Of a stretch of 55,434 nucleotides of DNA, positions 1,248 through 55,032 are shown piece after piece (positions within the stretch are counted from its first letter, which is position 1; each line of letters begins with the position of its first letter). Under the pieces are notes generated by a model. It was not told the DNA's origin. It searched no databases and was given only the letters and a program-made list of their open reading frames with translations. The DNA lies in assembly GCA_002104895.1 (NCBI GenBank), contig MCFG01000426.1, positions 1-55,434 of the forward strand, in the 5' to 3' direction. The translations under genes and the position numbers were made by a program. This stretch comes from Anaeromyces robustus (lineage: Eukaryota > Neocallimastigomycota > Neocallimastigomycetes > Neocallimastigales > Neocallimastigaceae).

Positions 1248-1310
1248 GTGAGTCGAACCCAGAGTGTTCGCCCAGATGGTCATAGTTACTAACCACTAGA
1301 CCATGGTTAC
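1248..1310 (-). other. tRNA-like module in A2 LTR
   Basis: On the minus strand the sequence has a box A match (TGGTCTAGTGG) and, 44 bp further on, a box B match (GGTTCGACTCA). This is the spacing of a real tRNA gene. The acceptor and anticodon arms do not pair well, so it is a tRNA mimic or decayed tRNA, not a functional tRNA gene. Confidence 0.75.
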
Positions 1311-1325
1311 TATTTTACTAATTGA

Positions 1326-1839
1326 TGATACAAGATAGTTATATAAAGAATGAGTATATGGTTCTATAAATAAATATTCAATCATATTATTGGATAATAA
1401 TATGTAAATGATTTGATAAATAATTAAAATATAGATATAAAAGAAAAATAATAATAATAAAATTAAACGAGGACTTTTCCTGAGTTAGGGAATTGCTCCA
1501 GATAAGTATAAAAGAATTTTTAGAAGAATTTTATTATCAATATTTTATAATTTAAAAGAATTATTATTTTCAACACAAGGTTTTCAATATTAATTTTCAG
1601 AAATAGTTATTATTGTCATTATAAACATGTTTTAAATAGAATTAATATTATATTTAATTATTGGAATAAATATATTTTATTTATAATTATAATTTAAATG
1701 TAATTAATTATTTTTAAATAAATAAATAGTCTATTAAAACATAAAATAAATATCTTATTATGAAAATATTATATTGTCGTGTTCCCCAACTGTCGCGTTC
1801 CTAAAATATATTAAAGATACAAAATAAATATCAGTATCA
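1326..1839 (+). repeat. Group-B1 solo LTR nested in the A2 LTR
   Basis: TGATACAAGATAG...AGTATCA, flanked by the 4-bp duplication TTGA (1322-1325 and 1840-1843). The reverse complement of this unit recurs at 24616-25128. TATAAAAG boxes near 1437 and 1508 read in the plus direction. Its first base lies 23 bp upstream of box A of the tRNA-like module, and it points away from that module. Confidence 0.9.
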
Positions 1840-1861
1840 TTGAGAGATTCGTTACAATAAT

Positions 1862-3691: not shown

Positions 3692-4265
3692 TGAAACAAT
3701 GTTGAAATTATCTTAATTCTATTAAATAGAAAGTGATAACTTCATTGTTCAAATATATGATTGTCTAAATCATATTTAGTTATAAATTTAAAAGAAATTT
3801 ATTAAGTTTAATATTTTAGTTTTAAAATTATTTTTATTAAAATTATAAATTTATTTAATACATCTCGTTTATGTATTAAAAATATTAAAATCTAGTTATT
3901 AAAAACATTATAAAATTTGTTATTATAATCTTTAATTATTATTAATCTAGTAGTTATTTTAAATATTATTATTCTAATTATTATTATTATTATTATTCTA
4001 ATTTTTATGGATAATTAGTAACAATTTTTAAAAATATTAATTTTTCATTTTCCTTTTATATTATTTTCTTATTTTTAAGTTTGTTTATAAATAAAATATT
4101 AATTTATTAAAATTAAGAACATTAAATAGTTAAAATAAATAATTTGTTTATATTAAATATTATTTAAATAATTAAATATTTTATAATTTATATTTAAATA
4201 ATTTTATAATATTTTTGAAATTCAGCAAATATTAATTATATTTTTATAAATTTCATTCTTTATCA
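3692..4265 (-). repeat. Group-B3 LTR nested in the A5 left LTR
   Basis: TGAAACAATG...CATTCTTTATCA, matching LTRs at 15886, 26433 and 35310. It begins on the plus strand with the group-B hairpin (AACAATG...CATTGTT). It separates the first 17 bp of the A5 LTR from the rest and ends 23 bp upstream of box A of that LTR's plus-strand tRNA-like module. A clean target duplication is not readable here. Confidence 0.8.
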
Positions 4266-4287: not shown

Positions 4288-4345
4288 TGGCTCAACGGTA
4301 ACTACTTCTACCTTTATCATAGATATCACTGGTTCGAATCCTACT
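4288..4345 (+). other. tRNA-like module in A5 left LTR
   Basis: Box A TGGCTCAACGG begins at 4288, and a perfect consensus box B (GGTTCGAATCC) begins at 4331, 43 bp later. A short anticodon-like stem (TCTA...TAGA) lies between them, and T runs follow near 4352. This is the best Pol III internal promoter in the window. The acceptor arm does not close, so it is not called a tRNA gene. A second copy lies at 5373-5430. Confidence 0.75.
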
Positions 4346-5337: not shown

Positions 5338-6444
5338 TGTAACGGTATCAACAACGACATTAAGGAACTTCGTGGCTCAACGGTAACTACTTCTACCTTT
5401 ATCATAGATATCACTGGTTCGAATCCTACTTTTACCTTTTTGATTTGGAAAATTATTCATTTATTTAGTTATTAATACATTTGTTCATTTACTTATTTTA
5501 TTAATAGAATTATTTAGTCTATAATTATTCATTCACTTAGTTAGATTTATTTAGATATTAGTTATTCGTTCACTTAGATATAAATACGATTTTATTTAGA
5601 TACTAATTATGTATTCACTTAATTATAGTAATAGTTAAATAATTAAATATTTTGTTATTTAAATAAGTAAACCAATCATGTAATGATTTAGAATAAGTCT
5701 TGAATATAAAAGAAATGTATTAATATTATTTTTACTCTTTGAGTCATTATTAATAAGAAAAATATTAAATATTTAAATATTAAATAAAATACAAAATAAA
5801 TCCATAAACATTATGTTTTTGTAACGTTTGCTTTTACACAATAGGTTTATAAACAATAAAGTAATTTAAAATAAATATGTTTTGTTAGAAATAAGTTTTA
5901 TTAATTTTAAAGTATAAATATTAATTATTAATTAGTTATTATAATATTTCAAATTACTTATAAACTAATTAATAAAAGCACGAATTTAAAAATATTTTAT
6001 TAATGAATTTTACACCTATTTATATTTTTTTCTGAAAATAATAAAAATATCTAAAAAGTTCTCGAAACTTAAATTTTTTTGATAAAAAAGAATCTTATGG
6101 AAAAAGGATAAATTATAAAAAATTTTTATCCGAAAATTTCTGATTTTATTCTATTAATTTCTATGATAAAATACAGAAATAAAATACAGAAATAAAATAC
6201 AGAAATTAATAATAAATTTTTCTTAAAATAAAAAATTTTTTATAAATTGAGAATGAGTGTGAGTCGAACCCAAGGAGTTCAGCTCGATGGTCATAGTATT
6301 TAACCACTAAACCATGGTTACTAATTTACTGATTATGAGTTTCGTTACAGTTTTAATATTGTGTTGTTTATTTTGTTTGTTTATTTTATTTTAATTATTG
6401 AAATACTACAACAACCTAGTGAATTTCTCACTAAGTTCGTTACA
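5338..6444 (+). repeat. A5 right LTR with nested A3 LTR
   Basis: TGTAACGGTATC...AAGTTCGTTACA, a close copy of the left LTR. It includes a tRNA-like module at 5373-5430 and a terminal hairpin (TAGTGA, loop ATTTC, TCACTA) just before its end. An A3 LTR interrupts it at 5820-6349. Confidence 0.85.
5820..6349 (-). repeat. Group-A3 solo LTR
   Basis: TGTAACGTTTG...TTTCGTTACA with the 5-bp duplication GTTTT (5815-5819 and 6350-6354), so it is a solo LTR inserted in the A5 right LTR. On the minus strand it carries a tRNA-like module (6259-6321), TTCTGTATTT repeats and TATAAATAGGTG. The self-primer predicted from its R start would be GTGCTTTTAT. Confidence 0.9.
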
Positions 6445-7981: not shown

Positions 7982-8696
7982 TGTAACGGAACGGTAGTTC
8001 CAATATTACAATTGACACCAAAATCTGAAGTAAACACAAACAAAATAAAATTTAAAATAAAAGATACTTATTGCAATATCAGAACACCTTTCCTTTGTTA
8101 ACCTGAAAGGTCGGTGTCGAGATATATATATTAGTAAGATTTAGTTTTAAGTTTTATTTTATTTTTATTTAAAATATGTTTTATTAGAATTTAGTTTTAT
8201 TAATTATTAAAAATTAATAATAACTAATCTTTGTAGTATTTCGAACTACTTATGAATTAATTATTACTAATATATATAAAGTTATAAAAGAATAAAAGCA
8301 CAAAGAAAAATATTTTAACTAAAGATTTTACACCTATTTATACTTTTTGCGGAAAAATAGTTTTAAAAATAAAAGTTCATAAAAAATAATAAAAATTACT
8401 AGAAACTAAGATATTTTGTTATAAAATGAATCTCATAGAAAAATAAAGAAATATTATATAATTTTTTCTTAAAGTTTCTAATTCTATTCCATGTAATTCT
8501 ATAAAGAAATACAGAAATAAAATACAGAAACAAATACAGAATAAAATACAGAAATTTATAATAAATAAATTTAAAATAAAATTTTTATAAAATTTGGAAC
8601 AAGGTGTGAGTCGAACCCAGAGTGTTCGCCCAGATGGTCATAGTTACTAACCACTAGACCATGGTTACTATTTTACTAATTGAGAGATTCGTTACA
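7982..8696 (-). repeat. gypsy-2 3' LTR (A2)
   Basis: TGTAACGG...GATTCGTTACA. On the minus strand it carries the tRNA-like module at 8606-8668, TTCTGTATTT repeats at about 8512-8560 and a TATAAATAGGTG box. It is not interrupted, unlike two other A2 copies in the window. Confidence 0.95.
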
Positions 8697-8711
8697 TGGT
8701 CCTCCTTCAGG
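8697..8711 (-). other. gypsy-2 polypurine tract
   Basis: Read on the minus strand this is GAAGGAGGACCA, directly before the 3' LTR. It is the usual plus-strand primer of LTR elements. Gypsy-1 has AGAGGAGGACCA at the same place. Confidence 0.8.
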
Positions 8712-12858: not shown

Positions 12859-13212
12859 CTTTTTGCGGAAAAATAGTTTTAAAAATAAAAGTTCATAAAA
12901 ATAATAAAAAATTGCTAGAGACTAAGATATTTTGATATAAAATGAATCTCATAGAAAAATAAAGAAATATTATATAATTTTTTCTTAAAGTTTCTAATTT
13001 TATTCCATGTAATTCTATAAAGAAATACAGAAATAAAATACAGAAACAAATACAGAATAAAATACAGAAATTTATAATAAATAAATTTAAAATAAAATTT
13101 TTATAAAATTTGGAACAATGTGTGAGTCGAACCCAGAGTGTTCGCCCAGATGGTCATAGTTACTAACCACTAGACCATGGTTACTATTTTACTAATTGAG
13201 GGATTCGTTACA

Positions 13213-17729: not shown

Positions 17730-19084
17730 TGTTACTGTTCATAACAATTACTTATGGATTATAACAAGATTTATTTTACACTCAAAATTAGTTAAGACAA
17801 AATTTTTATTAGGTTTAATTTTTAGTTTATTTATAAAAGTTTTAAAATGAATAGTAAAGATAAAGATTACAAGATTATAGAATAATTCAAAAATTATTTT
17901 AAAAATTACATGTATTTATATTTTTTTACAAAGTTAAAATTTGTTAAGCCTATCTAACATTTTCTAACTAATTTAAAATATAATTACTAAGTAAAATTGA
18001 AAATAAATTGAATTGAAATTGTTAATAAAATTATAAGTTAATTATTATAAATATTTATTATATAATAATTAATTACTATCTATTTATTATTATTATAATT
18101 ATTAATATATTTAAAAGAATATTTTTGAATTATAACAGATAATTTACTAAACTAATTACTAATAGAATTATAAAAAAAATGTTTTAAATTGATTTTAAAA
18201 TTGTTAATATAATTATCATTTTATTATTATAAATAATAATTATATATTATTTAATTATTTATTATTTATTATTATTATAAAAATAATATAAGTAACTGAA
18301 AATTTATAAAATATTTTTGTGGTGGTTTAGTTAAGTATTAGTAATAAATTTTTGTAAAAATAGTTTTGTATTGTTAATATAAATTTTTATAATCAATTGA
18401 AATAAAAAAAATTTTTATTAATATAATATAAAATAATTGTAATTTTAATATATATTAGTGCATAATTTTGTTGTAGCATTGCCAATAATTATTGAATTTG
18501 GGGTGTAATTTGGTAGGGACTATTACTAATTATTACATGGCAAGGAATTTGGTTATACTAAAAAAAAGAATTGTAATTAGTAATTTTTGGCTAATTTTAT
18601 TAGTAATTTGAAATAAGAATTGATTTTATCTTATAATTATTATTTATAATATATTGATTTAAAAATAATATAATTGATTTAATTATTTATAATAATTGAC
18701 TTTAATAAATATTTTGATATTGATAATAAATTTTATATTAATAATTTTATAAGTGATTTTAATAAAAAGTGGCTGGTATTAATAATAAATTTATAATTTT
18801 TATAATTTTTATATTGATATTAATAATTTTTGTTTTGATATTAATAATAAAATATGGTATTAATAATAATATATATATTTAAATTGATATTAATAATTTT
18901 TATATTGATTTTTAATAATAATATATTGAATTTTTATATTAATAATATAATTTAATATTAATAAATTTATATTGGTTATATATATTGGAAATTTCAATTT
19001 AATATAGAATGTAGGAAAGTTCTACAAGCCACAAAGAATCCAGTAATCTTAATGAATTTAAGATTAATTGTTCATTCTTTATCA
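17730..19084 (-). repeat. gypsy-3 3' LTR (B5)
   Basis: TGTTACTG...TTCTTTATCA, about 1.36 kb. On the minus strand it starts TGATAAAGAATGAA, the same U3 start as B3 and B4. A TATAAATA box reads on the minus strand near 17910. A solo relative is split at 35872-36752 and 44327-44710. Confidence 0.85.
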
Positions 19085-19096
19085 AGATGCCCCCAC
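19085..19096 (-). other. gypsy-3 polypurine tract
   Basis: TGGGGGCATCT on the minus strand, immediately before the 3' LTR. Confidence 0.7.
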
Positions 19097-19201
19097 TAAG
19101 ATTCAAGCTACACTAGAGTTGAGTTAAACTTGACTATATTCTTCAAGTGAGCATTTCTGTTCATTAATATACCAGAAGCAGGGTCAGCTAACGTAACAGT
19201 A

Positions 19202-20057
19202 TTATTGTTTCTTGATTACTCTTAAGGGTCCAACAAAATATGGTTCTAACTTTGTTCGGCTGAAGTTTCTTACTAACACTAAGTCACCAGGTTTAATTCT
19301 TTTTCCTTGGTTCATACTATTCTTTTCTTCTCTTCGGGTAGCCCAATACTTAGATGCATTTTTAATATTAGCGGCAGCTTCCATAACCCATTGGTAGTGG
19401 AGATTCAAATTTTTCAAGCAGAATTTCATCTGAGGATTTCTTTACTCCTTTGGTTGGTCTTGCAGCTATATCAAATGGTTGCTGATCTTCTCTTCCATAG
19501 ACTAACTCAAAGCTAGAATGGTTAGTAACTGAATTTTTCGTGGTTCTTAGAGCCCAAAGAGCGGATGGTAATATTTCATCCCAGTCTTTGTATTTTTGTC
19601 CCAGTAATCTTAATAATTTACCGATTTCTTTATTTCGGTTTTCTACCAATCCATTACTTTCCGGATGGTAAGTAGAAACAAACTTGACGTAAACATCATA
19701 TAAGTCAAGAAATACCTTGGTCATGTCTGAGGTAAATTGGGTACCATTATCTGTCGTGATAACTTGATGTACTCCATTCATGGCAAAAACATTGATTAAG
19801 AATTTAGTAACATCTTTAGAGGTAATGTTTTCAGTGGGTTCAGCTTCTACCCACTTTGTAAAATAATCTACAACAACTATAATATATTGGTTGTTATTTT
19901 TGGTCTTTTCCAGAGGTCTTATGATATCTAAAGCTAAGTGAGTGAATGGTTCTTCAACTTCAGATGGAATATCTTCAGTTTGTAGTGGATATGGTTGAGG
20001 TCTATTTAATTGACATTTTTCACATTTGCTAATTATTCGTTTAATGTCGTTAACCAT
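19202..20057 (-). pseudogene. gypsy-3 integrase region
   Basis: The minus strand shows the zinc-binding tail CEKCQLNRPQPYP, then core residues in LALDIIRPLEK, ITTDNGTQF and HPESNGLVENRNKEIG (the D, D and E positions). A C-terminal basic segment (KPGDLVLVRNFSRTKLEPYFVGPLRV) follows. The enzyme would insert the cDNA. The copy is broken. Confidence 0.85.
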
Positions 20058-20137
20058 ATCATTCCAGTAATAACTTTTCTTTAATCTCTGATAAGTTTTA
20101 TAGTATCCTTCATGACCGATACTATGAGCTTCGAAAA

Positions 20138-21430
20138 TTAACTCAACTTTTTCTTTGTATCAGTTACTAATTTTCGATAATTTTTTCCATCAATAAAATA
20201 ATCGATACCATCAATTGTGGTAAACTTTTCTTCAATGAATTCCTTTAGTACTTTGGATAAAAGATTTTCATCAATTTCCTTAATAACTTTAGTAGCTAGA
20301 ACTACTTTGTCTTCATTTCTTTTCATTCTTGACAAAGCATCGGCTACAACATTCTTTTTACCAGTTTCATATCTAAGGTCTACTTGCAATGTACTTACTG
20401 TTAAACACCATCTTGTATGTCTAGCAGTTTGGGGTTCCTTATTCTTAAGAAGTCCAATTAAGGGTCGATGATCAGTATACATTATGGTTGGAATAGGATT
20501 GCCCATAATGTATGATTCTAATTTCTTTATGCAATAAATTAGAGCTGTTCCTTCTAAATCAGTAATACCATAATTCTTTTCTGATTTAGTTAAAGTTCTA
20601 CTAATGAAATGAACTGGATGTTCAATGTCATTATCGTCATTCTTTTGAAGAAGTACTCCACCAACACCATCATAAAAAGCATCAGTTCTAATTATAAACT
20701 CTTTATCAAATTCTGGATACTTCAATATTGGAGCATTTATTAACTTTTCCTTGAGTTTTTGAAAACTTTCTTCTTGTTCAGTACTCCATATATACTTGGC
20801 TTTCTTCCTTAATAACTTGCACAATGGAGCTGAAGTTTTTGCATATTGGTCTATGAATTTTCTATAGTACCCAATAGCGCCTAGAAATGATCTTAGCTCA
20901 TGAACATTGGTTGGAGCTTTCCATTCACGGATAGACTTTACTTTTTCGTCTATCGGTTTGAGTCCTTGATCTGTTACTTTATGTCCTAATACTTCAACTT
21001 CGGTTTGCATAAAGCAACATTTTTCAATATTTATTTTTAGTTTATGTTTTTTAAATATTTCTAACACTTGTTTGATGTGAACCAAGTGTTCTTCGACAGT
21101 TTTAGAGTAAATTACAATATCGTCTATGAAATTATACACGCATTTTCCTATTAATGGAAAAAGAATGCGGTTCATTTCTCTTTGAAATGTAGCTGGTACA
21201 CCTGTTAGTCCAAAAGGCATAACTTTAAATTGGTAGTTACCAAATTTTATAGTAAATGTTGTAATTTCGATACTATCATCATCTATACGAATTTGATGAT
21301 AGCCAGAGTATAAGTCCGTAGTTGTAAAAATTTTTGCACCTGCTAAGTTATAGAAAATTTCATCGATATTTGGTAGTGGGTATGCATCCTTTTTAGTAGA
21401 GTCATTGACATTTCTATAGTCAATACACAT
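20138..21430 (-). pseudogene. gypsy-3 reverse transcriptase and RNase H
   Basis: A 430-residue minus-strand island starts inside the RT fingers (CIDYRNVNDSTKKDAYPLPNIDEI). It contains YNFIDDIVIYS (the YxDD-type catalytic box), a thumb/connection (LRSFLGAIGYYRKFI), RNase H motifs (IIRTDAFYDGVGGVL, ITDLEGTAL, TDHRPL) and NVVADALSRM at its end. The polymerase copies the RNA to DNA. It is part of a broken element. Confidence 0.9.
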
Positions 21431-21475
21431 TCTCCATTTACCGTTCGTTTTAGGAACTAAAACGATAGGAGATGA

Positions 21476-22489
21476 CTATTCAGAACTAGAAGGTTCAATT
21501 AATCTCTGTTCAACAAGTTTTACAATTATTTCTTGCAATATATTAGACTTTAATTTAGTAAGTCTGTAAAATTTTTGCTTAATTGGCTTTGCACCTTCTT
21601 TAAGTATTATTTTGTGAGGAGATAAATCTGAAGGTGTCAATTCTTCAGTAGAAGTTGCAATAATATCAAGATATTCTTGAAGTAATTTAACAATTTTATC
21701 ACCAAAGAGAGGATTTAAAGTTTCGTAAAATTGTTTATTTTGAATATATTCTTTAGGAGGTAGTCCTTCAATTCTCTTTAAATTTTTCTTAGCTTCACGG
21801 CGATCTAATGCCTTAATCATACATAGTAATTTCTCTTCATTATTATATTCATTATTAATAGTAGCTATTACGTCTACTAAACCTTTATTATTGAATTTAC
21901 ATAGACTATATAATATTGGATGAATAAATAAATGATTATCAATCTGAGTTTTTAAGTTAATCAAAACATCGTAAAATGGATTTTCATTTTCAACTACTCT
22001 ACAAATAACCGTTAGTTTAAGATTATTAATATTTATTGGTAACTCTATAACTATATCTTCCGAATAAATGTCATTCATAGTTGCTAAGCGTATTCGTCCT
22101 GAACTAAATCCAATTGGTTCGTTTTTATTTGGTAATTTATGTAAATATTGTTTCGTAACTATACTTAAGTTACTACAAGAATCAATTAACGCTTTTCCAG
22201 GAATACTGTCTACTGTTATATCAACCATAGTTATATCATCTTCTTTTGGCTCATGCCATTTCTTTTTGTAAGTATGGTTGCAATTGTTTACTATGATAGT
22301 AGAGGCACAGACATTATCCACAATACTGGAAACTCTTGGTTGGCTCCTATCCAATTTTTCCAATTTAAGACCTTGAGAAACAAGCGATCGAATTTTTGGA
22401 GATACATCTAGTAATTGGCCAAACGTGATGTTACAATTAATTGAATTTAAATCCTTAAGTACATCATAACCGTCACAATTAGTTTGCAT
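21476..22489 (-). pseudogene. gypsy-3 protease and RT N-terminal region
   Basis: The frame includes a retropepsin-like segment (ALIDSCSNLSIVTKQYL, with DSC where DSG or DTG is usual). Further on it has the RT entry motif (LSPHKIILKEGAKPIKQKFYRL) that precedes the RT palm. Low similarity to the gypsy-1 protease supports a separate lineage. Confidence 0.75.
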
Positions 22490-22570
22490 TTGTATTTTTC
22501 GAGGAACTTTAGCTGTTGAATTTTCCGTTTCAGTTGATTTGGATTTTTCATTTAGAAGTTTAGTTAAGGT

Positions 22571-24540: not shown

Positions 24541-24615
24541 AGGAAAGTTCTACAAGCCACAAAGAATCTAGTAATTTTAATGAAATTAAGATTAATTGTT
24601 CATTCTTTATCAAAA

Positions 24616-28002: not shown

Positions 28003-28016
28003 TGGTCCTCCTCTAG
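28003..28016 (-). other. gypsy-1 polypurine tract
   Basis: AGAGGAGGACCA on the minus strand, directly before the 3' LTR. Confidence 0.8.
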
Positions 28017-33332: not shown

Positions 33333-33385
<53 letters not shown>

Positions 33386-34101
33386 TAATAATAATTAAAT
33401 TATTTATCTAGTTACTAATTAATTTATTCACTTAGATTTATTATTGAAATTTATCTAATTACTAATTAATTTATTCACTTAAATATTTTTATCGAGGTTT
33501 ATCTAAAATAGATTTTATTTACTTAGATTTACTATTGAGTTTATCTAAATACTATTTATTTATCCACTTGATTATATTATAGGATTTATTTAATTTACTA
33601 ATTGTTATTCATTAAAATATAATATATGATTTATTTATTTACTATCACTATTCATTTATTTATAGAATTTTTTAAATTTTCCTTTAATAAATAATTCATG
33701 GAAACAGAGACCAAAAATAGGAATAGGTAATATTAAGAGAGTCTAAAAGTTTTGGAATGTTTTTATTTTATATCGGTTATTGAGAGATTCCAGGACGGTA
33801 TAAAAAGAATTCGAGAGTAGTATATATTTGACTAAAACTATAAGGAGTGACTAGTAAAGACTAAAGAACTAGTTGAGAAAGTAGCTAAGAAAACGGAAAG
33901 TCAGCTAGAATGGTTTGTATAAGTATTAACTAAGAAAATAAAGTAGTATCAAAAGGTAGCTGACTAATTAAGGTAGATTATAATAAGAATTGACTGAGCA
34001 AGGTAGATTCCTAGAAAAAGGTAGCCGAGAATTCAGAATAAGGTACTAGTCTTTAGGTAGCTTTGATTACGAAGGTATTGTGTTTGTTTCTTCCAATTTG
34101 G
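32491..34101 (-). other. gypsy-1 long leader with conserved non-coding block
   Basis: A leader of about 1.6 kb between primer site and gag. The parts 32699-33047 and 33180-33240 are almost identical to gypsy-2. A T tract of about 50 lies at 33335-33384 (poly-A on the element strand). No frame of note is present. GTAAGT donor-like sites on the minus strand near 33177 and 33205 leave room for a spliced leader, which I cannot confirm. Confidence 0.7.
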
Positions 34102-34111
34102 GCACTTTTAT
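34102..34111 (-). other. Primer-binding site, self-priming type (gypsy-1)
   Basis: ATAAAAGTGC on the minus strand abuts the 5' LTR and is the exact complement of GCACTTTTAT at 34296-34305. Gypsy-2 has ATAAAAGCAC with GTGCTTTTAT, so two positions changed together on both sides. Confidence 0.85.
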
Positions 34112-34295
34112 TGTAACAATCCTAATGGAATAAGATTGTCTTTTGTTTTGTAACACAATAGGTTCGTAATAATATTTATAAGTAATTGAATTTGTTTTTT
34201 GAGATCTTGTTTTATTAATTTATTAAATTATTAAAATATTATTTATTAACAATTAGTAATGTAATATTTCAAATTACTTATAAACTAATTAGTTA

Positions 34296-34305
34296 ATAAA
34301 AGTGC
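34296..34305 (-). promoter_or_regulatory. Predicted RNA 5' end / self-primer of gypsy-1
   Basis: GCACTTTTAT on the minus strand, about 45 bp downstream of TATAAATA, pairs perfectly with the primer site at 34102-34111. Confidence 0.75.
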
Positions 34306-34342
34306 GATTTTAAAAAATATTTTCTTTGTAAAATTTTACACC

Positions 34343-34350
34343 TATTTATA
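34343..34350 (-). promoter_or_regulatory. gypsy-1 LTR TATA box
   Basis: TATAAATA within TATAAATAGGTGTAAAA on the minus strand. Confidence 0.7.
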
Positions 34351-34617
34351 GTTTTTTCGGAAAAATAGTTTTAAAAATAAAAGTATATAAAAAATAATGA
34401 AAAATGCTAGAAACTTAGATTTTTCGATTGAAAATGAATCTTATAGAAAAATAAAGAAATATTATAAAATTTTTTCTTAAAGTTTCTAATTTTATTCCAT
34501 GCAATTCTATGAAGAAATACAGAAATAAAATACAGAAACAAATACAGAATAAAATACAGAAATTTGTAATTAAATTTTAAAATAAAAATTTTTTTTTTTA
34601 TAAAATTTGGAACTAGT

Positions 34618-34680
34618 GTGGGTCGAACCCAGAGCGTTTGCCCTGATGGTCCTAGTGACTAACCACTAGGCCATGGTTAC
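34618..34680 (-). other. tRNA-like module in A1 LTR
   Basis: Box A-like TGGCCTAGTGG and box B GGTTCGACCCA at tRNA spacing on the minus strand. A T-arm-like TGGG...CCCA can form, but the other arms do not close. Copies lie at 27912-27974 and 53769-53831. Confidence 0.7.
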
Positions 34681-34713
34681 TATTTTACTAATTCTAGGAT
34701 TCGTTACAGTTAT

Positions 34714-35868: not shown

Positions 35869-37341
35869 AAATGTTACGGTTCATAACACTAATACAATGG
35901 ATTATAACAAGAATAAATTTTTACACTTCAAGAATTGTTAACCAAAATTTTTATTAGGTTTAATTTTTTCTTTTATTTATAAAAGTTTTAAATTGAATAA
36001 TATGATGAATTATTAAAATTAGAAAAAAGAATAAAGAATAATTCAAAAATTACATGCATTTATATTTTTTTACAAAGTTAAAATTTGTTAAGCCTATCTA
36101 ATATTTTCTAACTAATTCTAAATATAATTACTAAGTAAAATAAAAATAAATTGAATTTAAATTGTTAATAAAATTATAAGTTAATTATTATAAATATTTA
36201 TTACATAAAAATTAATTACTATCTATTTATTATTATTATAATTATTAATATATTTAAAAGAATATTTTAGAATTATAACAGAAAATTTACTAAACTATTA
36301 CTAATAGAATTATAAAAAAAATGTTTTAAATTGATTTTAAATTGTTAATATAATTATAATTTTATTATTATAAATAATAATTATATATTATTTAATTATT
36401 TATTATTTATTATTATTATAAAAATAATATAAGTAACTGAAAAGTTATAAAATATTTTTGTGGTGGTTTAGTTAAGTATTATTAATAAATTTCTGTAAAA
36501 GTAGTTTTGTATTGTTAATATAAATTTTCATAATCAATTGAATTAAAAATAATTTTCATTAATATATAATAGTATAAAATAATTGTAATTTTAATATATT
36601 TTAGTGCATAAATTTATTGTAGTATTACTAATAATTATTGAATTTGGGGTGTAATTTGGTAGGGGCTATTACTAATTATTATATGGCAAGGAATTTGGTT
36701 ATACTTAAAATTGAATTTTAATTAGTAATTTTTGGCTAATTTATTTTGTAAGTGTAATGATAGAGTGGAGTTTATTAGCAACAGGCCCGCAAGCTTGAGT
36801 AACTCGAAATAATGGACAACACGAAAGATCTAAGAAAGATAAAAGACACAGTTAATTAAAAATATGTTTTATAATAAAATGTTTTATTAATTTTTATTAA
36901 ATTTAAAATATAATAATTTATTAATTAGTTAGTGTAATATTTCGAATTACTTATTTAACTAGTTAATAAAAACGCGAAGAAAAAATATTTCTTTTGTCGA
37001 AATTTTACACGTATTTATACTTTTTACGGAAAAATAGTTTTCGTTTGTAAAAAGTATTAAAAGTTCTAGAAACTTAGATTTTTTGATTTAAAATGAATCT
37101 CGGATAAATAAAATTTAAAATAAAAAGAAAAACTAGAATCTTTTAGAATTTAATCGATAAGATTTTATCGATTAAATTCGAGTAATTTCTACAACAAGGA
37201 AAAGTGTAGAAAATTTTGATAATAAATTTTTAAAATAAAATTTTTCCAAAATCGGAAAGAGTGAAAGTCGAACCCGAGAGGTTCGGCCTGATGGTTCTAG
37301 TGTCTGACCACTAGACCATGGTTACTATTTTACTAATTCTG

Positions 37342-38382
37342 TGTTAAGAAATGAACTTAAAATGTGATTCTAGTTAAAATCATAGTATTTTACTAATCAC
37401 ATAATTATTTCTTATTATTATTGTCTTTACAATATTTTATTAAAATATTATTCTTATGGTTCAGTTATTATTCTTATTTTATTTTTTTTTATATTTTTAT
37501 TATATTATATTTTTATTAAACTTATATATTCTTATTATAATATCAATATTATTTTATATTATTGTTTTATATAATTAAAATATATTATTTTATATTATTA
37601 TTTTATATAATTAAAATGTATTATTTTATATTATTATTTTATAACTTAAAATATGTTATTTTATATTTTTATTCTGTATAATTATCAATATTTTATACAC
37701 TATATTTTTATTCTTATATTTTTATTAATATTTTATTATATATTTTTATTACATTAATGTATATTTACAAATACAAAAATTAATTTATAACTGAACTTAT
37801 ATTTTATTTTTATATACTGAATTAACCACTTAAGCCAGCAAATTAATTTTTCTATTAATATATGATTTAACCACAATTAAATTTAAAATTTATTTCTAAA
37901 AGATTCTAATTATAAACTAAACCATGTAAAAAATTAGAAATTTACATATAATTAAAATATACTTTATTAAATTTAATAATATAATAATATTATTTATACA
38001 AATAATAATTAAAATGTATTATTAATTCAATTTCTAATTAAAATATTAAATAAATAAACCACTATTTTGTTACGCCATCTTATTTATGCTTCTTCCAAAA
38101 AGTATAAATAGAGGACAAATAATCAATAATTGAAACGATATCAATATATCAATATAATTAATATAATTTTTATAATTAGTATAAGTAAATAAATTATTTA
38201 TAAAATAAATTTATTAGTAATAGTAAAAACTTTAGTATAGTTTAATAAAAATTTACGAGTGATTCATATTATTAATAAAAGTTATAAATAAACCCTTAAT
38301 CCTTTATAGTATACTTCTTATAATTAAAGTGTTAATAGTGTGAATTATTTCCTTCAATATAAAATTTTTATGGACCGTAACA
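37342..38382 (+). repeat. Group-B8 solo LTR
   Basis: TGTTAAGAAATG...GGACCGTAACA with the 4-bp duplication TCTG (37338-37341 and 38383-38386). A plus-strand TATA box (AGTATAAATAGAGG, near 38100) gives its orientation. It begins 24 bp upstream of box A of the A4 tRNA-like module. Confidence 0.85.
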
Positions 38383-39508: not shown

Positions 39509-40494
39509 CTTTTTGTGTCGCGAATATTAGTGGATTTAAAATTGAAATTCACTAATAGATCAATTACATTTAAATTTCGTTATTGACTAAATCACTTAAA
39601 ATTCGATTTTCAATAAAATAAACAAATATTAAAAAGTAATTAAATTGATATTGTAAAAGGTTTGGACAAATTAAATAAATATTAATCAACTTAATTTAAC
39701 CCTTAAGATGTTAGTAAAAATAATACGAAGAAAAATAACGATAACTCACCAAATATTGAAGATTTCCTCCGCTTCACTTTGATTTTATGCTCATTGAGAA
39801 GCTCTGCTCAAGAGCTACAACATATCTGAATTTCAGCCCATTTGGACCACTGGTTGGCGAGATATTGGACTTTAAAGATTTACACAATATAAAAATATAA
39901 TTAAATATTTACAAGGATCCATAAATAAATAATTATAAAATTTATATAGATAAAATCTTTTTATTTCAATAATTATATTATAATTTATAATAATAATAAT
40001 TCATTCAGATATACAGAAAACGCCTTCAAATAATTTATGAAATATTAATTAGAATAATAATAATAATTTATATAATATATTATAATAATTGTTAATTATT
40101 TTTATAAAAAATTAGAATAGTTGATTATTATATTAATTTACAGAAATTCTTAGAATTCCAAAAAATCTCAAAAAGATTTAAAATTTACTTAAGATCTTAA
40201 ATAATTAAAAATATCCCATTTTATCTATAATAATTAATTATACAGAAAAGATTATAAAAATCCAAAGATAAAAATAATTAATATATAGATAAATAATTAA
40301 ATAGTATACTAAACAATTAAATAATTAAATAGTTAACTAGTTAGATAATTAGAATAGTTATAAATCTAAATCTTAGATTATAAATTCTTATCATTAAATT
40401 TATTAATAGTTTATATAGTTTTATATTAGTTTTATATAGTTAGATTTTTATCAATATTATTTTATTCATATATTTTATTTAAAATTATACATGT
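39509..40494. other. Internal DNA of a B9-type element, no gene
   Basis: No frame is seen. A less A+T-rich block at 39750-39890 contains hairpins (AGCTCT...AGAGCT) and CAAATATTGAAGATTT. That 16-mer recurs in the group-B leader at 55372-55387, so this is probably leader sequence. The rest is A+T-rich. Confidence 0.5.
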
Positions 40495-41195
40495 TGTAAC
40501 GGAACGGTTGTTCCAATATTACAATTGACACCAAAATTTGAAGTAAACACAAACAAAATAAAATTTAAAATAAAAGATACTTATTGCAATATCAGAACAC
40601 CTTTCCTTTGTTAACCTGAAAGGTCGGTGTCGAGATATATATATTAGTAAGATTTAGTTTTAAGTTTTATTTTATTTTTATTTAAAATATGTTTTATTAG
40701 AATTTAGTTTTATTAATTATTAAAAATTAATAATAACTAACCTTTGTAGTATTTCGAACTACTTATGAATTAATTATTACTAATATATATAAAGTTATAA
40801 AAGAATAAAAGCACAAAGAAAAATATTTTAACTAAAAGTTTTACACCTATTTATACTTTTTGCGGAAAAATAGTTTTAAAAATAAAAGTTCATAAAAAAT
40901 AATAAAAATTGCTAGAAACTAAGATATTTTGTTATAAAATGAATCTCATAGAAAAATAAAGAAATATTATATAATTTTTTCTTAAAGTTTCTAATTCTAT
41001 TCCATGTAATTCTATAAAGAAATACAGAAATAAAATACAGAATAAAATACAGAATAAAATACAGAAATTTATAATAAATAAATTTAAAATAAAATTTTTA
41101 TAAAATTTGGAACAAGGTGTGAGTCGAACCCAGAGTGTTCGCCCAGATGGTCATAGTTACTAACCACTAGACCATGGTTACTATTTTGCTAATTG

Positions 41196-42409
41196 TGATA
41201 CAATATTCCCTTATATACACATTATTTCTAAACCCATATTTTTAAACCTTTTATCCCATATAAACTAACATTTAATAAAACTTCTTTATAATATTATTAA
41301 TATCTTAAAACATAATAATTTTATCTATATTAAAAATTATTTTTATATTATCAATATTTTATTAATATCTTAAAATAAATTATAAATATTTTATTAATAT
41401 CAAATAAATTTTATCAATACTTTATAATTAATATTATAATAAATTTTATCAATATTCTTATAATAAATAAATATTATTAATATTTTATATTAAATAAATC
41501 CTATTAATATCTTATAATAAATTCTATATCTTTATTAATATTTTAAATAAATCTTATTAATATTTTATAATAAACTTTATATATAATAAATAATATTTTA
41601 AATAATATTTTATCAATATCAAATATTTTATAACACTTTATTAATACATTTTATTTATATTCTTATAACAATAATTATTAATATTTCTAATTCTAACCTT
41701 TAATAAATTTAATACTTCAATATAATTATAATAATAAATATTTATAATAATAAATATATAAATAATTATAATTAAATAATACTATCCACTCTTTTCCCTT
41801 TTTCCCTTATCCTTTCCCTCCAACTTAAAAACCCTGGACAAATACAGAAAATAAATATTCTGTATATTATTAAAATAAAATAAAATAAATAAAATAATAA
41901 AAATTAATTATAAAATAAATGAATTATTTATAAAATGTATAATACAGAAGTTAAATGTATTTCTGTATAAAAGTATAATATTTATTTTTAATTTTTATTT
42001 AAAACACTAAATAGATTAATAAAATAATTAATAATTAGAATAGAAAATATTAATAAATAATAATAACAATAATAATTAATATTAAAATAAATCTTAGAAA
42101 ATAATGTTTAGAATAGAGAATTATATTATAAAATAAATAATAATAATTAGATTAATTAAATAAATAATAATAATAATAATAGTCGAAAGACTATAATAAT
42201 AAAATTCATGTATTATAAAAAGAGGATAATTTTTCTTTCTTTTATAAGACGATCAATAATTTGTATTTAAAAATAAGAATAATAAAAATAAAAGAAGAGT
42301 TAAACAAAAGATTATTTTATTTTTAATTTTATTGATTCATTAGTAATAATTATTTAGTATATAAGTTAATTATATTTATTGTTTATGAATATACATGTTT
42401 CCTGCATCA
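41196..42409 (+). repeat. Group-B2 solo LTR nested in A2
   Basis: TGATACAATATTCCC...TTTCCTGCATCA with duplication ATTG (41192-41195 and 42410-42413). It inserts 22 bp upstream of box A. A plus-strand TATAAAAG lies near 41967. Confidence 0.9.
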
Positions 42410-42415
42410 ATTGAG

Positions 42416-42937
42416 TGATACAAGATAAACTTATATCTAATTATTTTATTTAAAGACAAGACAGCAGGGAAATATTAACAAAACAATATATTCTAATATA
42501 ACACAATTTATAATAATTATTTCATGTTTAATATAATAGTTTATTTATTTATTATTATTTATTATTACATTTTATTATAATTATAATTGAATTTATCTAA
42601 CTAATATTAATATCTAAACTAAACTTTATTATATAAACACTATTCCTTATTAATCTATATATTAACCTAGGAAATTCTCAAATAAAATATTAAATTATTA
42701 AACTAAATATTAATTAAACCATTATAAAAATCTCTAAACTATATTATAAAAAACTCACTTGGGATTAACTTTCTCTCCATAGAAAGATCAAATATTAAAA
42801 ATATAATAATAATAATTTCTTTTATATGTATTATTTAGTTATTTAGCCAATCAGAATTATTTATTTTTTCTTCTTAATACATGTTCAATCACCTGGTAGT
42901 AATAATATAAATCTCTATTTATATTGAGTCTGTATCA
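42416..42937. repeat. Group-B7 solo LTR nested in A2
   Basis: TGATACAAGATAAAC...GTCTGTATCA with duplication TGAG (42412-42415 and 42938-42941). It shares only its first ten bases with B1. In the uninterrupted LTR its target lies 24 bp upstream of box A, overlapping the B2 target. Confidence 0.9.
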
Positions 42938-42958
42938 TGAGAGATTCGTTACACATGT

Positions 42959-44310
42959 ATAAATATATTATCAATAGATTATAATAATTAAATGTATTAA
43001 TAATTATTAGATTTAGAAAAAGTATAAATAAGGATTGAAATTACAATTCCTTTTAATCTTTGTAAGATTATTAATCTAAAATTGAATTAATGACTTAATA
43101 ATCTAATTATTATTTAAACTTTTCTTAATTAATTATTAATAAAAAATATTATTATAAAACTTAATTATTTTAAAAAGTGTTCTTTTAATTAATTAATTTA
43201 TTGTGTATTAATAAATAAATTTGCCTATTAATTATATATTTGTTTAATTAGTTATTTTGTTATTAATTAAACATCTTGACCTGACCATTATTAAACCAAA
43301 ACTACCCACATTTAACACTTTTAAAAATTCTAATTAGTTTTATTTATTATTATTCTCTATAATTTATTATTAATTTACTTTAATTATAATTATTTTCTAA
43401 ACTTCAAATAATTAATAAATTTTAATATTATATTGAATTATCATTTAAAATAATTAATAACATTAATAAAAAAATAATAAGATTATTAAATTATATTTTA
43501 AAACAATATCTTTATCATTATTATCTTAAACTAAATCAATTCTTAAAAATATTATTGAATATTAAATTTATATAAATTATAAACAATTTATAATTAATAT
43601 TATAAAAATAATAAACGATTCTAAAATATTTTAATTAAATAATATGACTCGAAAATAGTTTCTAAAAACACTTTTAAAATACCTTCTAAATACTTTTTAA
43701 ATATTCTTTACACTTAAACATTTCTAAATTAGAAATAACAACTAATTTTATTTACTTTATAAATAAATAAACAGTTTATCTTTATAATTTTATTAATAAT
43801 ATTATTTATTTTTATTATTTATTTTATTATTATTTTTATACATTTTTACTTATTTTATTCAATAATTTTTAATTATTTTATTTATATTTTTATAAATACT
43901 TGTATTATTTTATTTATTATTGTAAATAGTTTAATTTTAAAGAAAAATATAAATACATGTAAATATTTTTATGTAAATTAATTCTTTACTACTATTTTTA
44001 ATAATAGCTTAGTCATAAATATAATGAATTAATAATTATTAGAATAAATTACTAAATTAAAATATATAATCAACATAAAATAGTTTAGTTAAGAATAAAA
44101 CTACTATTTAATAAATAATAATAAATTTAATAAAATTTTAATAAATAAAGTTTATATTTTAAACTTAATAATAAAACTGTGTTTTTATAAAACAATTTTA
44201 GTGTTTAAATTTACAATCTACTGGAAAATAACTTAGACAGTTATTCTGAAAATACATAGGTAATATCACTTTCTTCCCTATAAAGAATTAAGATATTACC
44301 ATTTTGTATT
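42959..44310. repeat. Fused LTR pieces (B9-like, then B6)
   Basis: 42959-43317 resembles the B9 LTR end (AGTATAAATAAGG, CTTTGTAAGATTATTAA, TTTAACA). 43318-44310 is the reverse complement of the B6 piece at 14946-15881 plus its hairpin end (GGTAATATCTTAATTC on the minus strand). No gene is seen. Confidence 0.55.
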
Positions 44311-47254: not shown

Positions 47255-47258
47255 AAAA

Positions 47259-50709: not shown

Positions 50710-50769
<60 letters not shown>

Positions 50770-53258
50770 TATTTCTTCATTTAAATTTGGATTATTATTC
50801 AATTTTAGTAATTCTGTATAAATGTTATTACTATCATAAAAATCATCATTAATTTCTTCATCCAATTTATTTTTAGCCAAATTATTTAAATTAGCATTAT
50901 TTACATTTTCATTATTTAAATTATTATCAGAAATTTTATTTAAATTCTCATTATTTATATTATCATTGTTTAAATTATTTTCAGAATTACTATTTGAATA
51001 AGAATTATTAACTTTTACAGTACCTTTGTTTACATTACTTACTTTTGGATTGTTATTATTATTAATTTCCTGTATATTTTTATCCATCTTGTCATTAATA
51101 TCTTCATTATTTTTATTTATTTCACTTTTAATTTCATCATTGTTTTCAATTACTCCATTTTTAATGTTTGAATTATAATTATCATTCTCATGATTTACAT
51201 CCTTGTTATCATTAATTGAATCATTACTTTGAATTAAATCTTTATTATTTTGATTATTAACAATTAAAGAAAGTTTCCTAATTAAGTCATTTATTTTGTC
51301 ATTATTATTTAAATTATTTAAATTATTTAATTGGTTGTTTATAATTAAAATAAATTTTTGAATTAAATCATTTAATTCACCAATTTGATTCGATTTATTT
51401 GAATTGTTTAAATTACTTAATTTGTTTTCATTATTTAAAATATTTAATTTATTTTCATAATTTAAATTAATTAATTTGTTTTCATTATTTGAATTATTTA
51501 AATTGTCAATTAAATTTTTATTATTACTTAAAACATTAATTAAATTTTCAATTGAGTTTTTTTTATCATTTAAATTGTTAATTAAATTATAAGTAATTAA
51601 TTCATTTGAATTATTTAAATTGTTAATTAAATTATTATTATTTAAATCAATGGCTAATTTGTTGTCTAAAAGTGCACTTTTAAAATTTTCTATACTAGGA
51701 ATATTATTAATTTTGTTTGTGGATATTAAATAATTTTTATCTTCTATATTATTGTTATTATTATTAGAAATATTTAAATTATTATTGTTTGTATTGTCAA
51801 TATTATTATTAATTGAAATAATTTCTTTTGTATTTTCATTTAATTTATTATTATTATCATTGTCATTTTCCATATCACAATATGGAATAAAGTTTCTAAA
51901 ATTTGGAATATTAGAAGGGGCATCTATGTTTCCAGGTTCATCTTCATTAAACGAAACTGCTCTAGAAAGTATAACTTTATTATTAGTAATATCGTATATC
52001 CTGTAAGCAGTGTGGTTTGTTTCATCATATCCTAATAATATTCCAGGTAAGGTAGTGTTAGAATATTTTTCTCTAAATTGCTTAGGAACAAAGAAGTAAG
52101 CTGCACAACCAAAAACTCTAAACTTATTGTAGTTTACCTTTTCTTTATATAAAACTTCAAAGGGTACTTTGTTGTTAATACCTTTATGAGGTAGTCGGTT
52201 ATGTATATAGTTAGCTGTCCTTATAGCGTCTTCCCAAAACTTATGATTTAACTTTGCATCTTCTAGCATTGCATTTGCATTTGATATTAATGTTCCATGA
52301 AGACGTTCTACTCTACCGTTCTGTTGGGGGTTGTAAGGAACTGTTGTTTGATGTATTATTCCAGTTTCGTTAAAGAAGTTATTAAAATTGCTGTTAACAA
52401 ATTCAGTTCCATTATCAGTCCTAATATTTTTAATTGATTTGTTGAAATAATTCTTTACCATACTAAACCAGATAGTAAATTTATTAAAGGTTTCACCTTT
52501 ATTCCTTAGAAAGTATACCCAACTATATCTTGAGTAATCATCTAATATTGTTAATATATATTTATTACCATATATGGAATAGTCTGGAATATAGACTAAA
52601 TCCATATGTATTAATTCAAATATATCTTTACTTTTATTTTCAGAAAGCGGATATGGGAAATTCTTTAGTTTAGACTTAATACAAATCTTACAGTTTTTAT
52701 TTATACTAATTTTCTTTAATTTATCTTTAATTTTATCGATATTAAAGTGACCCAGTCTTCTATGCCAAAGTCTAAGATCTGAGTCCTCTATAGCTTCTTC
52801 TATGTTATAACAGGACACTCCATTATCGAAATTTATATTCTTATTTGAAATAATGATTTTATATACTTTTGTTTTACTCGCTTGCGAAGTGAATATTCTT
52901 TTATTTTTATTATTATATAAGGCTGCATAATTTTTATCTTTGTATTTATAAAATACAGTTTTATAGTTATCTTCACTTAGGTGGTTTATTGAAAGAAGAC
53001 ATCTTTTGAATGTAGGTATATATAGAACATCATTTAAAATAATTTCGTGCCCATTGATGTGTCCTATAAATTTACCTATCTTTTTCGAAGTTACAAAACC
53101 ACCATCTGCAAAATGTATATTTATGATATGATCTTTTATGTTGGTTAGTTTATTTATATCATTGATCATATGGTATGACGCACCAGAATCTAGAGTCCAA
53201 ACTGTTACGTCATTTTTATAAGGATAATAAATATCCTTTTCTTGAATATTATCGGCAG
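48634..53258 (-). CDS. copia B Pol: protease end, integrase, RT, RNase H
   Basis: The first ATG in this stretch is at 53169 (1511 residues), but the frame is open to 53258 and includes the protease DSGA, so this ATG is probably internal. Counting from 53169, rough residues are: GAG-pre-integrase about 130-170 (LWHRRLGHF, CKIC); integrase core about 190-330 (HMDLVYI, RTDNGTEF, NGRVERLHG); a huge Asn-rich linker about 430-1000; RT about 1030-1270 with AVYVDDIIIA near 1202. RNase H follows (VYVDSDLGGD, ATSTAESEYYG, TDNKAAIY) to the end. The order integrase before RT is diagnostic of Ty1/copia. Confidence 0.95.
50711..50769. repeat. (ATT)n microsatellite in copia B linker
   Basis: About 20 ATT units, read as AAT (Asn) codons on the minus strand, giving a pure Asn run near residues 800-820 of the Pol frame. 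Confidence 0.9.
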
Positions 53259-53847
53259 TGTAACAATCCTAATGGAATAAGATTGTCTTTTGTTTTGTAA
53301 CACAATAGGTTCGTAATAATATTTATAAGTAATTGAATTTGTTTTTTGAGATCTTGTTTTATTAATTTATTAAATTATTAAAATATTATTTATTAACAAT
53401 TAGTAATGTAATATTTCAAATTACTTATAAACTAATTAGTTAATAAAAGTGCGATTTTAAAAAATATTTTCTTTGTAAAATTTTACACCTATTTATAGTT
53501 TTTTCGGAAAAATAGTTTTAAAAATAAAAGTATATAAAAAATAATGAAAAATGCTAGAAACTTAGATTTTTCGATTGAAAATGAATCTTATAGAAAAATA
53601 AAGAAATATTATAAAATTTTTTCTTAAAGTTTCTAATTTTATTCCATGCAATTCTATGAAGAAATACAGAAATAAAATACAGAAACAAATACAGAATAAA
53701 ATACAGAAATTTGTAATTAAATTTTAAAATAAAAAATTTTTTTTTTTTTTATAAAATTTGGAACTAGTGTGGGTCGAACCCAGAGCGTTTGCCCTGATGG
53801 TCCTAGTGACTAACCACTAGGCCATGGTTACTATTTTACTAATTCTA
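53259..53847 (-). repeat. Group-A1 LTR in copia B, interrupted
   Basis: Nearly identical to the gypsy-1 LTRs, with a longer T run. It stops at ACTAATTCTA, 24 bp upstream of box A, where a B2 LTR starts. The missing end (GGATTCGTTACA in gypsy-1) should lie beyond the window. It may be a solo LTR or one end of a full element. Confidence 0.85.
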
Positions 53848-55032
53848 TGATACAATATTCCCTTATATACACATTATTTCTAAACCCATATTTTTAAACC
53901 TTTTATCCCATATAAACTAACATTTAATAAAACTTCTTTATAATATTATTAATATCTTAAAACATAATAATTTTATCTATATTAAAAATTATTTTTATAT
54001 TATCAATATTTTATTAATATCAAATAAATTTTATCAATACTTTATAATTAATATTCTTATAATAAATTTTATCAATATTCTTATAATAAATAAATATTAT
54101 TAATATTTTATATTAAATAAATCCTATTAATATCTTATAATAAATTCTATATCTTTATTAATATTTTAAATAAATCTTATTAATATTTTATAATAAACTT
54201 TATATATAATAAATAATATTTTAAATAATATTTTATCAATATCAAATATTTTATAACACTTTATTAATACATTTTATTTATATTCTTATAACAATAATTA
54301 TTAATATTTCTAATTCTAACCTTTAATAAATTTAATACTTCAATATAATTATAATAATAAATATTTATAATAATAAATATATAAATAATTATAATTAAAT
54401 AATACTATCCACTCTTTTCCCTTTTTCCCTTATCCTTTCCCTCCAACTTAAAAACCCTGGACAAATACAGAAAATAAATATTCTGTATATTATTAAAATA
54501 AAATAAAATAAATAAAATAATAAAAATTAATTATAAAATAAATGAATTATTTATAAAATGTATAATACAGAAGTTAAATGTATTTCTGTATAAAAGTATA
54601 ATATTTATTTTTAATTTTTATTTAAAACACTAAATAGATTAATAAAATATTTAATAATTAGAATAGAAAATATTAATAAATAATAATAACAATAATAATT
54701 AATATTAAAATAAATCTTAGAAAATAATGTTTAGAATAGAGAATTATATTATAAAATAAATAATAATAATTAGATTAATTAAATAAATAATAATAATAAT
54801 AATAGTCGAAAGACTATAATAATAAAATTCATGTATTATAAAAGGAGGATAATTTTTCTTTCTTTTATAAAACGATCAATAATTTGTATTTAAAAATAAG
54901 AATAATAAAAATAAAAGAAGAGTTAAACAAAAGATTATTTTATTTTTAATTTTATTGATTCATTAGTAATAATTATTTAGTATATAAGTTAATTATATTT
55001 ATTGTTTATGAATATACATGTTTCCTGCATCA
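53848..55032 (+). repeat. Group-B2 LTR, probable 5' LTR of an element leaving the window
   Basis: TGATACAATATTCCC...TTTCCTGCATCA, like 41196-42409. A tRNA-type primer site follows after 9 nt, so this is likely a 5' LTR and not a solo copy. Confidence 0.8.

Follow-up and report, generated by a model that had tools for sequence, protein, structure and literature searches.

Long terminal repeats of group-A retrotransposons in Anaeromyces robustus as probable mobile landing pads for two other retrotransposon groups

Integration of retrotransposons next to transfer RNA (tRNA) genes is already known, and so are long terminal repeats (LTRs) that contain promoters for RNA polymerase III (Pol III). 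Can the LTR of one retrotransposon, through such a promoter, become the integration target of another? The question is raised by a stretch of 55,434 nucleotides from Anaeromyces robustus (GenBank assembly GCA_002104895.1, contig MCFG01000426.1, forward strand), here called the window. It has a G+C content of 21% and is contig C364 of an AT-rich assembly of 70.17 Mb in 769 contigs. Two groups of LTR elements concern us first: group A, whose LTRs contain a tRNA-like module with a box A and a box B, and group B, members of which end just upstream of box A. In our view, the group-A LTRs very probably assemble the Pol III factors TFIIIC and TFIIIB and act as mobile targets, both for group B and for a further group, C.

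An earlier note on this DNA had described six group-B insertions at a near-constant distance upstream of box A, and all six junctions are present. Counting the bases between the end of the insert and the first base of box A (TGG..), the gaps are 22 bp at 1326, 21 at 41196, 23 at 53848, 22 at 4265 and 23 at 37342, and 23 by eye for the insert at 42416 in the original LTR; the distances given before were about 1 higher, by counting convention. The inserts are a B1 solo LTR (1326..1839, +), a B3 LTR (3692..4265, -) before an A5 box A, a B5 insert (37342..38382, +) before an A4 box A, a B2 LTR (41196..42409, +) before an A1 box A, older group-B material (42416..44308, +), and a B2 5′ LTR followed by a TGG-type primer-binding site (PBS) before an A2 box A (53848..55032, +), the far end of which lies beyond the window. 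Three of the four clean 4-bp target-site duplications (TSDs) reported earlier stand, namely TTGA (1326-1839), ATTG (41196-42409) and TCTG (37342-38382). The fourth, TGAG, is insecure because the LTR remnant past the 42416 insert (CTGAGTTTCGTTACAG, about 44309) resembles A3, not A1. The TSD of Ty3 is 5 bp, as against 4 bp for the group-B inserts here. The B3 copy looks recombinant, since its flanks come from different A families (on the far side the start of an A1-like LTR, TGTAACGAATCCCTCA, at 3676; on the near side the A5 LTR) and the would-be duplication is mismatched (TTGT/TTGA). At 41196-42416 two inserts lie in succession: B2, closer to the module, splits the part of the LTR that the outer insert had left. 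The outer insert starts TGATACAAGATAAAC, has a B8-like right end with an approximate boundary, and its ends are not those of one LTR. This order fits the expectation that new copies enter at the same site and push older ones outward.

What is the module upstream of which these elements end? A scan of the window finds box A paired with box B 10 times, whereas 20 order-1 random sequences average 0.05 such pairs, so the modules are more than chance. TGG[TC]CTAGTGG was taken as box A because of its tRNA-like spacing to box B and its match to A3, A5 and A6. The scanned modules, given from box A to box B, lie in an A1 LTR (1249..1303, -; position from the +35 rule below), the A5 LTR adjoining B3 (4288..4341, +), an A5 LTR starting at 5338 (5373..5426, +), the A3 LTR at 5821-6350 (6260..6314, -), uninterrupted A1 LTRs at 7982-8697 (8607..8661, -) and 12494-13212 (13123..13177, -), uninterrupted A2 LTRs at 27404-28003 (27913..27967, -) and 34111-34708 (34619..34673, -), the A1 LTR broken by B inserts (41120..41174, -) and the A2 LTR broken by B2 (53770..53824, -). 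One more, outside the 10 scanned pairs, was read directly in an A4 LTR (37264..37318, -; box B end approximate).

Read in the LTR's own sense, which is set by the polypurine tract (PPT) of A1 and by the open reading frames (ORFs), the module is close to where U3 (the upstream part of the LTR) begins at its 5′ end. Box A starts at index 35 of the LTR in A1, A2, A3, A5 and A6, five of the six families measured, and at index 21 in A7. From box A to box B there are 43-44 bp (55 in A7). With the first TTTT beyond box B as terminator, the predicted Pol III transcript would be 76-98 nt in A1, A2, A3 and A5; TATAAATA is found at 241-359 of the same four LTRs. The modules of A1-A3 and of A5-A6 are of two clearly different types. 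Exact modules of the A1/A2/A4 type number 200 by pattern search, and the module patterns gave 0 and 0 matches in the collections viral_contigs and genome_contigs. Genuine tRNA genes were considered for the A modules and rejected: ARAGORN and Rfam report 0 tRNAs each in the window, and six module-bearing A-type loci (L175, L184, L092, L180, L133, L176) have no tRNA match at E <= 1 in a search that did match two tRNA genes.

Similar modules occur elsewhere. An A7-type LTR (TGTAATGATATGG, with a PPT like that of A1; L176, L031, L062) has one. A dispersed repeat, M6, has a tRNA-like head (TATCCTGGTTGTTAAGG ... GGTTCGA or GGATCGA; L004, L107, L109, L119, L121, L185, L198) and is perhaps a short interspersed nuclear element (SINE); it is struck by both B and C1.

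Where does group B land in the genome at large? The searches score the best candidates only, so the census of copies is a sample. It comprises 83 group-B 5′ ends: 60 from the B2, B3 and B5 fetches, 14 from B1, 4 further B2 and 5 window cases. For B3, 22 of 61 matches were fetched, picked for an intact 5′ end (a few more such remain); for B5, 6 of 18 were read and 12 left out; B1 copies L076-L078, whose 5′ end is cut by another LTR, were excluded, and some further B1 matches were left out. Seventeen of the 83 ends run into a PPT and are thus the inner side of 3′ LTRs, which leaves 66 informative ends. Of these, 47 face a target, 21 a tRNA gene and 26 a tRNA-like module (23 by motif and three, L093, L005 and L069, by eye). 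Eighteen of the others abut another LTR, which fits repeated entry at one site, and one is reversed (L006, whose 3′ end faces an M6 module). Leaving aside the five window cases, there are 61 informative ends, 42 of them facing a target. For B2 all 40 matches are accounted for: 13 at tRNA genes, 14 at a module or mimic, 5 at a PPT and 8 at another LTR (including C367).

The distances are narrow. At the 21 tRNA genes, which represent several isotypes with differing upstream sequence, B ends lie 19-28 bp from box A (mean 21.8). In A LTRs the range is 21-23 bp, with a single A5 case at 32; no sampled B end lies elsewhere in an A LTR, and insertions spread along these LTRs, or missing from true tRNA genes, would have told against the landing-pad proposal. 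At M6 the distance is 27-29 bp to the motif as scanned, or 22-24 if box A starts at TATCC, an assignment made by eye against tRNA-Ser. Seen from the tRNA genes (47 of 63 search rows, giving 42 distinct upstream regions, many of them of related tRNA-Arg copies), a B-type end stands 13-16 bp away in 10 of the 42. Group B, with this narrow upstream window, is a tRNA-gene-targeting LTR retrotransposon. Among the 200 A1/A2/A4-type modules, 18 are followed by TGATA within 8 bp; two of these are intact LTRs with a base change, and the other 16 are insertions (2 in the window) of seven LTR types in 12 combinations of type and offset. The landing sequence of A5 and A6 differs from that of A1, A2 and A4, yet B keeps the same offset.

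In the five cases where orientation could be judged, the inserts had been said to point away from the module. A strong bias is indeed seen, but a fixed orientation must be rejected: L006 is reversed, and L156 and L179, of other families, appear so. By eye, up to 7 of the 66 ends could be reversed, L006 and six others (L095, L106, L113, L118, L141, L144) that face a neighbour's 5′ end or an end of unassigned kind. A pattern search for reversed B2 or B3 at A1/A2/A4-type modules gave 8 matches, none starting TGATGC or TGAAAC.

The targets proved broader than the tRNA mimics in group-A LTRs on which the earlier note had dwelt: the A modules are targets, but other tRNA-like repeats are hit as well, and a second group of landers, missing from that note, is involved. 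Group C uses the same targets as B, about 50 bp further out. A C-type end is found at 63-68 bp in 12 of the 42 distinct tRNA upstream regions, and by this narrow window C too is a tRNA-gene-targeting LTR retrotransposon. (L031 was merged with L021 in that sample, and its far-window end is thus uncounted.) The C1 LTR terminus at 39516..39640 (+), used as query, has 40 matches: 6 continue on the PBS side into the body of their own element, 1 is of insufficient length, and the other 33 are informative. Twenty-four of the 33 fit a target. Eight are at tRNA genes (C589 and C39 by coordinates alone), 11 at A modules (8 directly and 3 with B inserted between), 3 lead to A6 or M6 across some 51 bp of B LTR, and 1 is at M6; we infer that the C1 at L007 belongs to the tRNA-Ser gene beyond a B1 array. 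Another 8 abut other LTRs. The distance to box A is 70-74 bp at tRNA genes, one tRNA-Val apart, and 67-76 bp at A modules.

At these distances C1 lies outside the A LTR. In 31 such cases the gap to the LTR start is 31-47 bp, with a peak at 38-39, and 23 of the 31 fall within 36-41 bp (P = 6e-11 for gaps spread uniformly over 22-52, cases taken as independent); adding the 35 bp to box A gives 71-76 bp for these. The gap sequences differ by eye. Two of the 31 gaps (C324:38943 and C409) contain the A PPT, so that C1 lies within an A element before its 3′ LTR, at 31 and 45 bp. Because C1 sits outside the A LTR at a narrow distance, neither LTR sequence nor recombination suffices to explain the pattern. 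The TGTCGCG end of C1 faces the targets. It was considered as the 5′ end of the LTR and rejected: the ORF in L206 reads away from it, which makes it the 3′ end. Another group-C terminus, of C8 (47628..47700, +), cuts a B2 LTR some 50 bp inside the 5′ end of that LTR. A check for coding sequence beside C8 and C2 led no further, C8 seeming to be read the opposite way.

Could the A elements themselves be drawn to Pol III genes? The 33 flanks of A1 (14 at the 5′ and 19 at the 3′ side, 250 bp or less each) contain no tRNA gene, and on this ground A1 is a target and not a lander. The one tRNA-like box in these flanks belongs to an A7-type LTR. At L047 and L062 the other flank of A1 also has no tRNA gene, which suggests that C-type LTRs came to A, not A to C. 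Targeting by A elements is thus rejected for A1, with A7 as the exception: its LTR is also seen upstream of tRNA-Arg and upstream of an A1 LTR, at the outer landing distance (L031, L062), being both target and lander.

How might an LTR come to be chosen? Close to where U3 begins, the A LTR would provide a tRNA-like Pol III promoter of type 2. The module would bind TFIIIC, which, as happens at tRNA genes, would bring TFIIIB to the DNA upstream of box A. B would integrate beside the bound complex, about 22 bp upstream of box A and near the expected Pol III start, and C about 50 bp further out from the same complex. As tRNA genes and A modules both serve B and C, each further A copy would be a new target provided that its module works. 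Repeated insertion at one target would build an LTR array with the newest B copy nearest the module. The earlier proposal that group-A LTRs are mobile landing pads is supported by the position and precision of the insertions, made by several families, by the genuine tRNA-gene targets, by the second window outside the A LTR and by the array order at one locus. Occupancy of the A LTRs by TFIIIC and TFIIIB in the cell, and their role as tether, would account for all of these. Landing about 22 bp upstream of box A in DNA that differs across targets is what a TFIIIB tether would predict; Ty3 is tethered by TFIIIB and does not use extra TFIIIC sites that lack it (PMC5911963).

Could the DNA itself, rather than Pol III factors, attract the inserts? 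B integrases may prefer the AT-rich, TTTTACTAATT-like sequence or shape upstream of box A. The landing sequence is near-identical in A1, A2 and A4 LTRs, and AAAA also borders group-B ends that lie between older B LTRs. Yet 21 B ends lie at a similar distance from tRNA genes of several isotypes with differing upstream DNA, A5 and A6 differ at the landing site and keep the offset, and C1 keeps to a narrow distance outside the A LTR, which together make a sequence preference very improbable. Chance or local sequence is very unlikely also because a second element keeps its own distance to the same modules. Just as improbable is that the positions coincide through LTR recombination or gene conversion, or that a few insertions were copied along with A elements. 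Recombination does occur, as two of the six window cases with mismatched far flanks indicate, and there are duplicate loci (C219/C378; L145/L146) and several inserts of the same type and offset. However, the A modules show 12 combinations of LTR type and offset, the 4-bp duplications differ, the C1-to-A gaps look different by eye, and copies stand at unrelated tRNA genes. Purifying selection on insertions occurs in compact genomes, and random insertion followed by removal elsewhere might leave such a record. It would have to explain why none of the 66 informative B ends lies in anonymous AT-rich DNA remote from any target or LTR, save the 5′ side of the reversed L006, when A1 flanks of this genome do lie there; we regard it as extremely improbable.

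Two further explanations grant the module a part. The A modules may bind TFIIIC only, as extra TFIIIC sites, with the B and C integrases using TFIIIC or local chromatin and not TFIIIB. Yeast TFIIIC does touch the Ty3 integrase, but TFIIIC sites without TFIIIB are not Ty3 targets (PMC5911963), and both boxes are kept with tRNA-like spacing; this seems unlikely. A stronger contender, if still a doubtful one, holds that the modules are passenger SINE relics without function for A and that the landing-pad effect is a by-product. SINE insertion has been proposed as the origin of tRNA-like LTR sequences (PMC10886601), the transcript predicted for four LTRs (about 76-98 nt) is too short for an A genome, and module conservation is barely above that of other LTR blocks. 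Against this, box A at +35 in five families and in two different module types (A1-A3, A5-A6) suggests upkeep; moreover, a relic origin bears on why A has the module, not on whether the module is the target.

Several observations weigh against A LTRs as Pol III-dependent targets. In 7 of the 10 window pairs the box A given by the scan was a TAGTAAAA/TAGCAAAA further up, of equal score, so that box A was partly assigned by eye. In the A1-A4 alignment the 30-column block at box A has 73% invariant columns, the highest value, as against 70, 67 and 63% in other blocks; module conservation is weak evidence. The landing site in A1, A2 and A4 is one repeated sequence, and B data alone could reflect local DNA, which is why the tRNA-gene and C data are needed. 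The copies found by best-candidate searches are similar and of recent date, and some of the inserts may go back to a single event. The B and C terminal motifs for the tRNA-upstream scan were defined after the first loci had been inspected. Group-B orientation varies, and there are outliers in distance for B (A5 at 32 bp, tRNA-Ser at 28) and for C1 (tRNA-Val at 79, A3 at 67, A1 at 76). Eight of the 31 C1-A gaps lie outside 36-41 bp. For one informative C1 (L166) we recognised no target, and the C motif also matched twice by chance, at 2 and 3 bp.

What kinds of elements are these? In A2, B2, B6 and C1, the ones tested, Pfam and PDB comparisons find reverse transcriptase and RNase H of the Ty3 type and an integrase, which places them in Ty3/gypsy (Metaviridae). 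For the pol of A2 and that of B6, the Ty3 polyprotein ranks first or second among the PDB matches. The A2 element (27404..34708, -) is 7.3 kb long, with LTRs 99.8% identical and an uninterrupted 1390-aa gag-pol with a chromodomain at the C-terminus of the integrase (PF00385, E 5.6e-17; A2 being the group-A family examined), which marks it as a chromovirus. The group-B element B6 (18791..24613, -; boundaries approximate) has gag-pol in separate frames (19368-23544), with the rve domain in its ORF; the B2 integrase (L149) is split over two frames, with the zinc-binding part matched. No chromodomain is found at E <= 0.01 in the B2 and B6 ORFs, whose frames are broken so that a piece may be missed. 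B1 and B3 seem, from LTR spacing, to be short non-autonomous forms. C1 (L206, L207) is likewise a chromovirus, with a chromodomain at the integrase C-terminus that matches more weakly than that of A2 (PF00385, E 2.6e-07). Aligned with A2 (43% identity over 527 columns), C1 is not aromatic at the first and third cage positions, placed after those of HP1; its chromodomain seems to have lost two cage residues.

Among the named protein matches listed, Orpinomyces proteins are the best for the B6 pol (72% identity) and one is 74% identical to the A2 pol; other animal, plant and fungal names in that listing reach at most 54%. This likeness points to an anaerobic gut fungus (Neocallimastigomycota) as the probable host. 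A relative of the A2 polyprotein is found in a metagenome-assembled genome of Erysipelotrichaceae (P0055), probably as fungal contamination.

How does this compare with known systems? DGLT-A of Dictyostelium resembles B in being a Ty3/gypsy element without a chromodomain and in its distance, about 15 bp (13-33) upstream of the mature tRNA, as against 13-16 bp for B-type ends (PMC5006619). Its host is an amoeba, however, and the main text of that article does not contain the words tRNA-like, pseudogene or nested. Ty3 of yeast is also Ty3/gypsy and integrates at the Pol III start through TFIIIB, but wild-type Ty3 inserts in both orientations (PMC5911963, PMC5006619). Tj1 of Schizosaccharomyces japonicus, an LTR element, lies upstream of Pol III genes in one orientation; it is transcribed in the direction of the target gene, whereas the sampled B families mostly point away (PMC4600332). 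TRE5-A integrates in Dictyostelium rDNA upstream of box pairs that are not tRNA genes, read as a sign of TFIIIC/TFIIIB, but it is a non-LTR element and its target is not mobile (PMC5391098). C1 is matched by Skipper-2 of Dictyostelium, which targets tRNA genes and has a chromodomain without the first and third cage residues, as C1 seems to; unlike C1, which lies upstream at about 66 bp, Skipper-2 lies downstream of tRNA genes (PMC5006619).

The closest parallel to A is with Helenus and Cassandra, terminal-repeat retrotransposons in miniature (TRIMs) that have a tRNA-like or 5S-like Pol III promoter sequence in the LTR; they are short and non-autonomous, and their module is thought to drive the template RNA (PMC10886601). 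Group A shares with Helenus and TRIMp3 the tRNA-like sequence in the LTR. A2, at 7.3 kb and with the uninterrupted 1390-aa gag-pol, is not a short non-autonomous element; its predicted Pol III transcript is short, and it has a TATA-like box apart from the module. The portion drawn on of a choanoflagellate survey (PMC6875170) holds nothing relevant. Among the matches listed in the open-access literature, to which our search was confined (subscription papers and preprints being outside its scope), none described anaerobic-fungus retrotransposons at tRNA genes or an LTR serving as target for other retrotransposons through a Pol III promoter.

Elements that integrate at Pol III genes are believed to do the host little harm. 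In the present case the target is mobile, and the number and place of safe sites would therefore shift as A elements spread. Old insertions would then be a genomic record of LTRs that recruited Pol III factors. Such a record offers testable evidence that tRNA-like LTR modules work as promoters, a function still unvalidated for the module of Helenus (PMC10886601). The two groups of landers, one without a chromodomain and one in which it is altered, have windows at about 22 and about 72 bp from box A and so also provide natural material on what sets integration distance. It is possible, though we lean slightly against it, that the A LTRs are mobile Pol III promoters in autonomous chromodomain elements that lay out safe harbours for two or more integration systems whose windows differ by 50 bp, the module being kept for a role other than template synthesis, e.g., as a chromatin boundary. 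A hit in a 5′ LTR would leave the predicted genomic RNA of A untouched, B landing at about +13, and for this reason A may tolerate being a target or gain from it.

Some other features deserve mention. Stacks of group-B LTRs with AAAA-type spacers are found in the window at 24300-27000 and 44375-47262. Elsewhere, three B1 LTRs lie in tandem, about 1058 bp apart, between a C1 end and a tRNA-Ser gene (C151 24993-27624; L007, L008, L070), and tRNA-Glu and tRNA-Arg(TCT) genes form close pairs about 6-12 bp apart (L009, L010, L012-L014, L032). The window also has an uninterrupted Ty1/copia frame of 1511 aa with long asparagine runs (48634-53169), and a repeat common to three places (1-244, 11506-11746 and 33184-33434).

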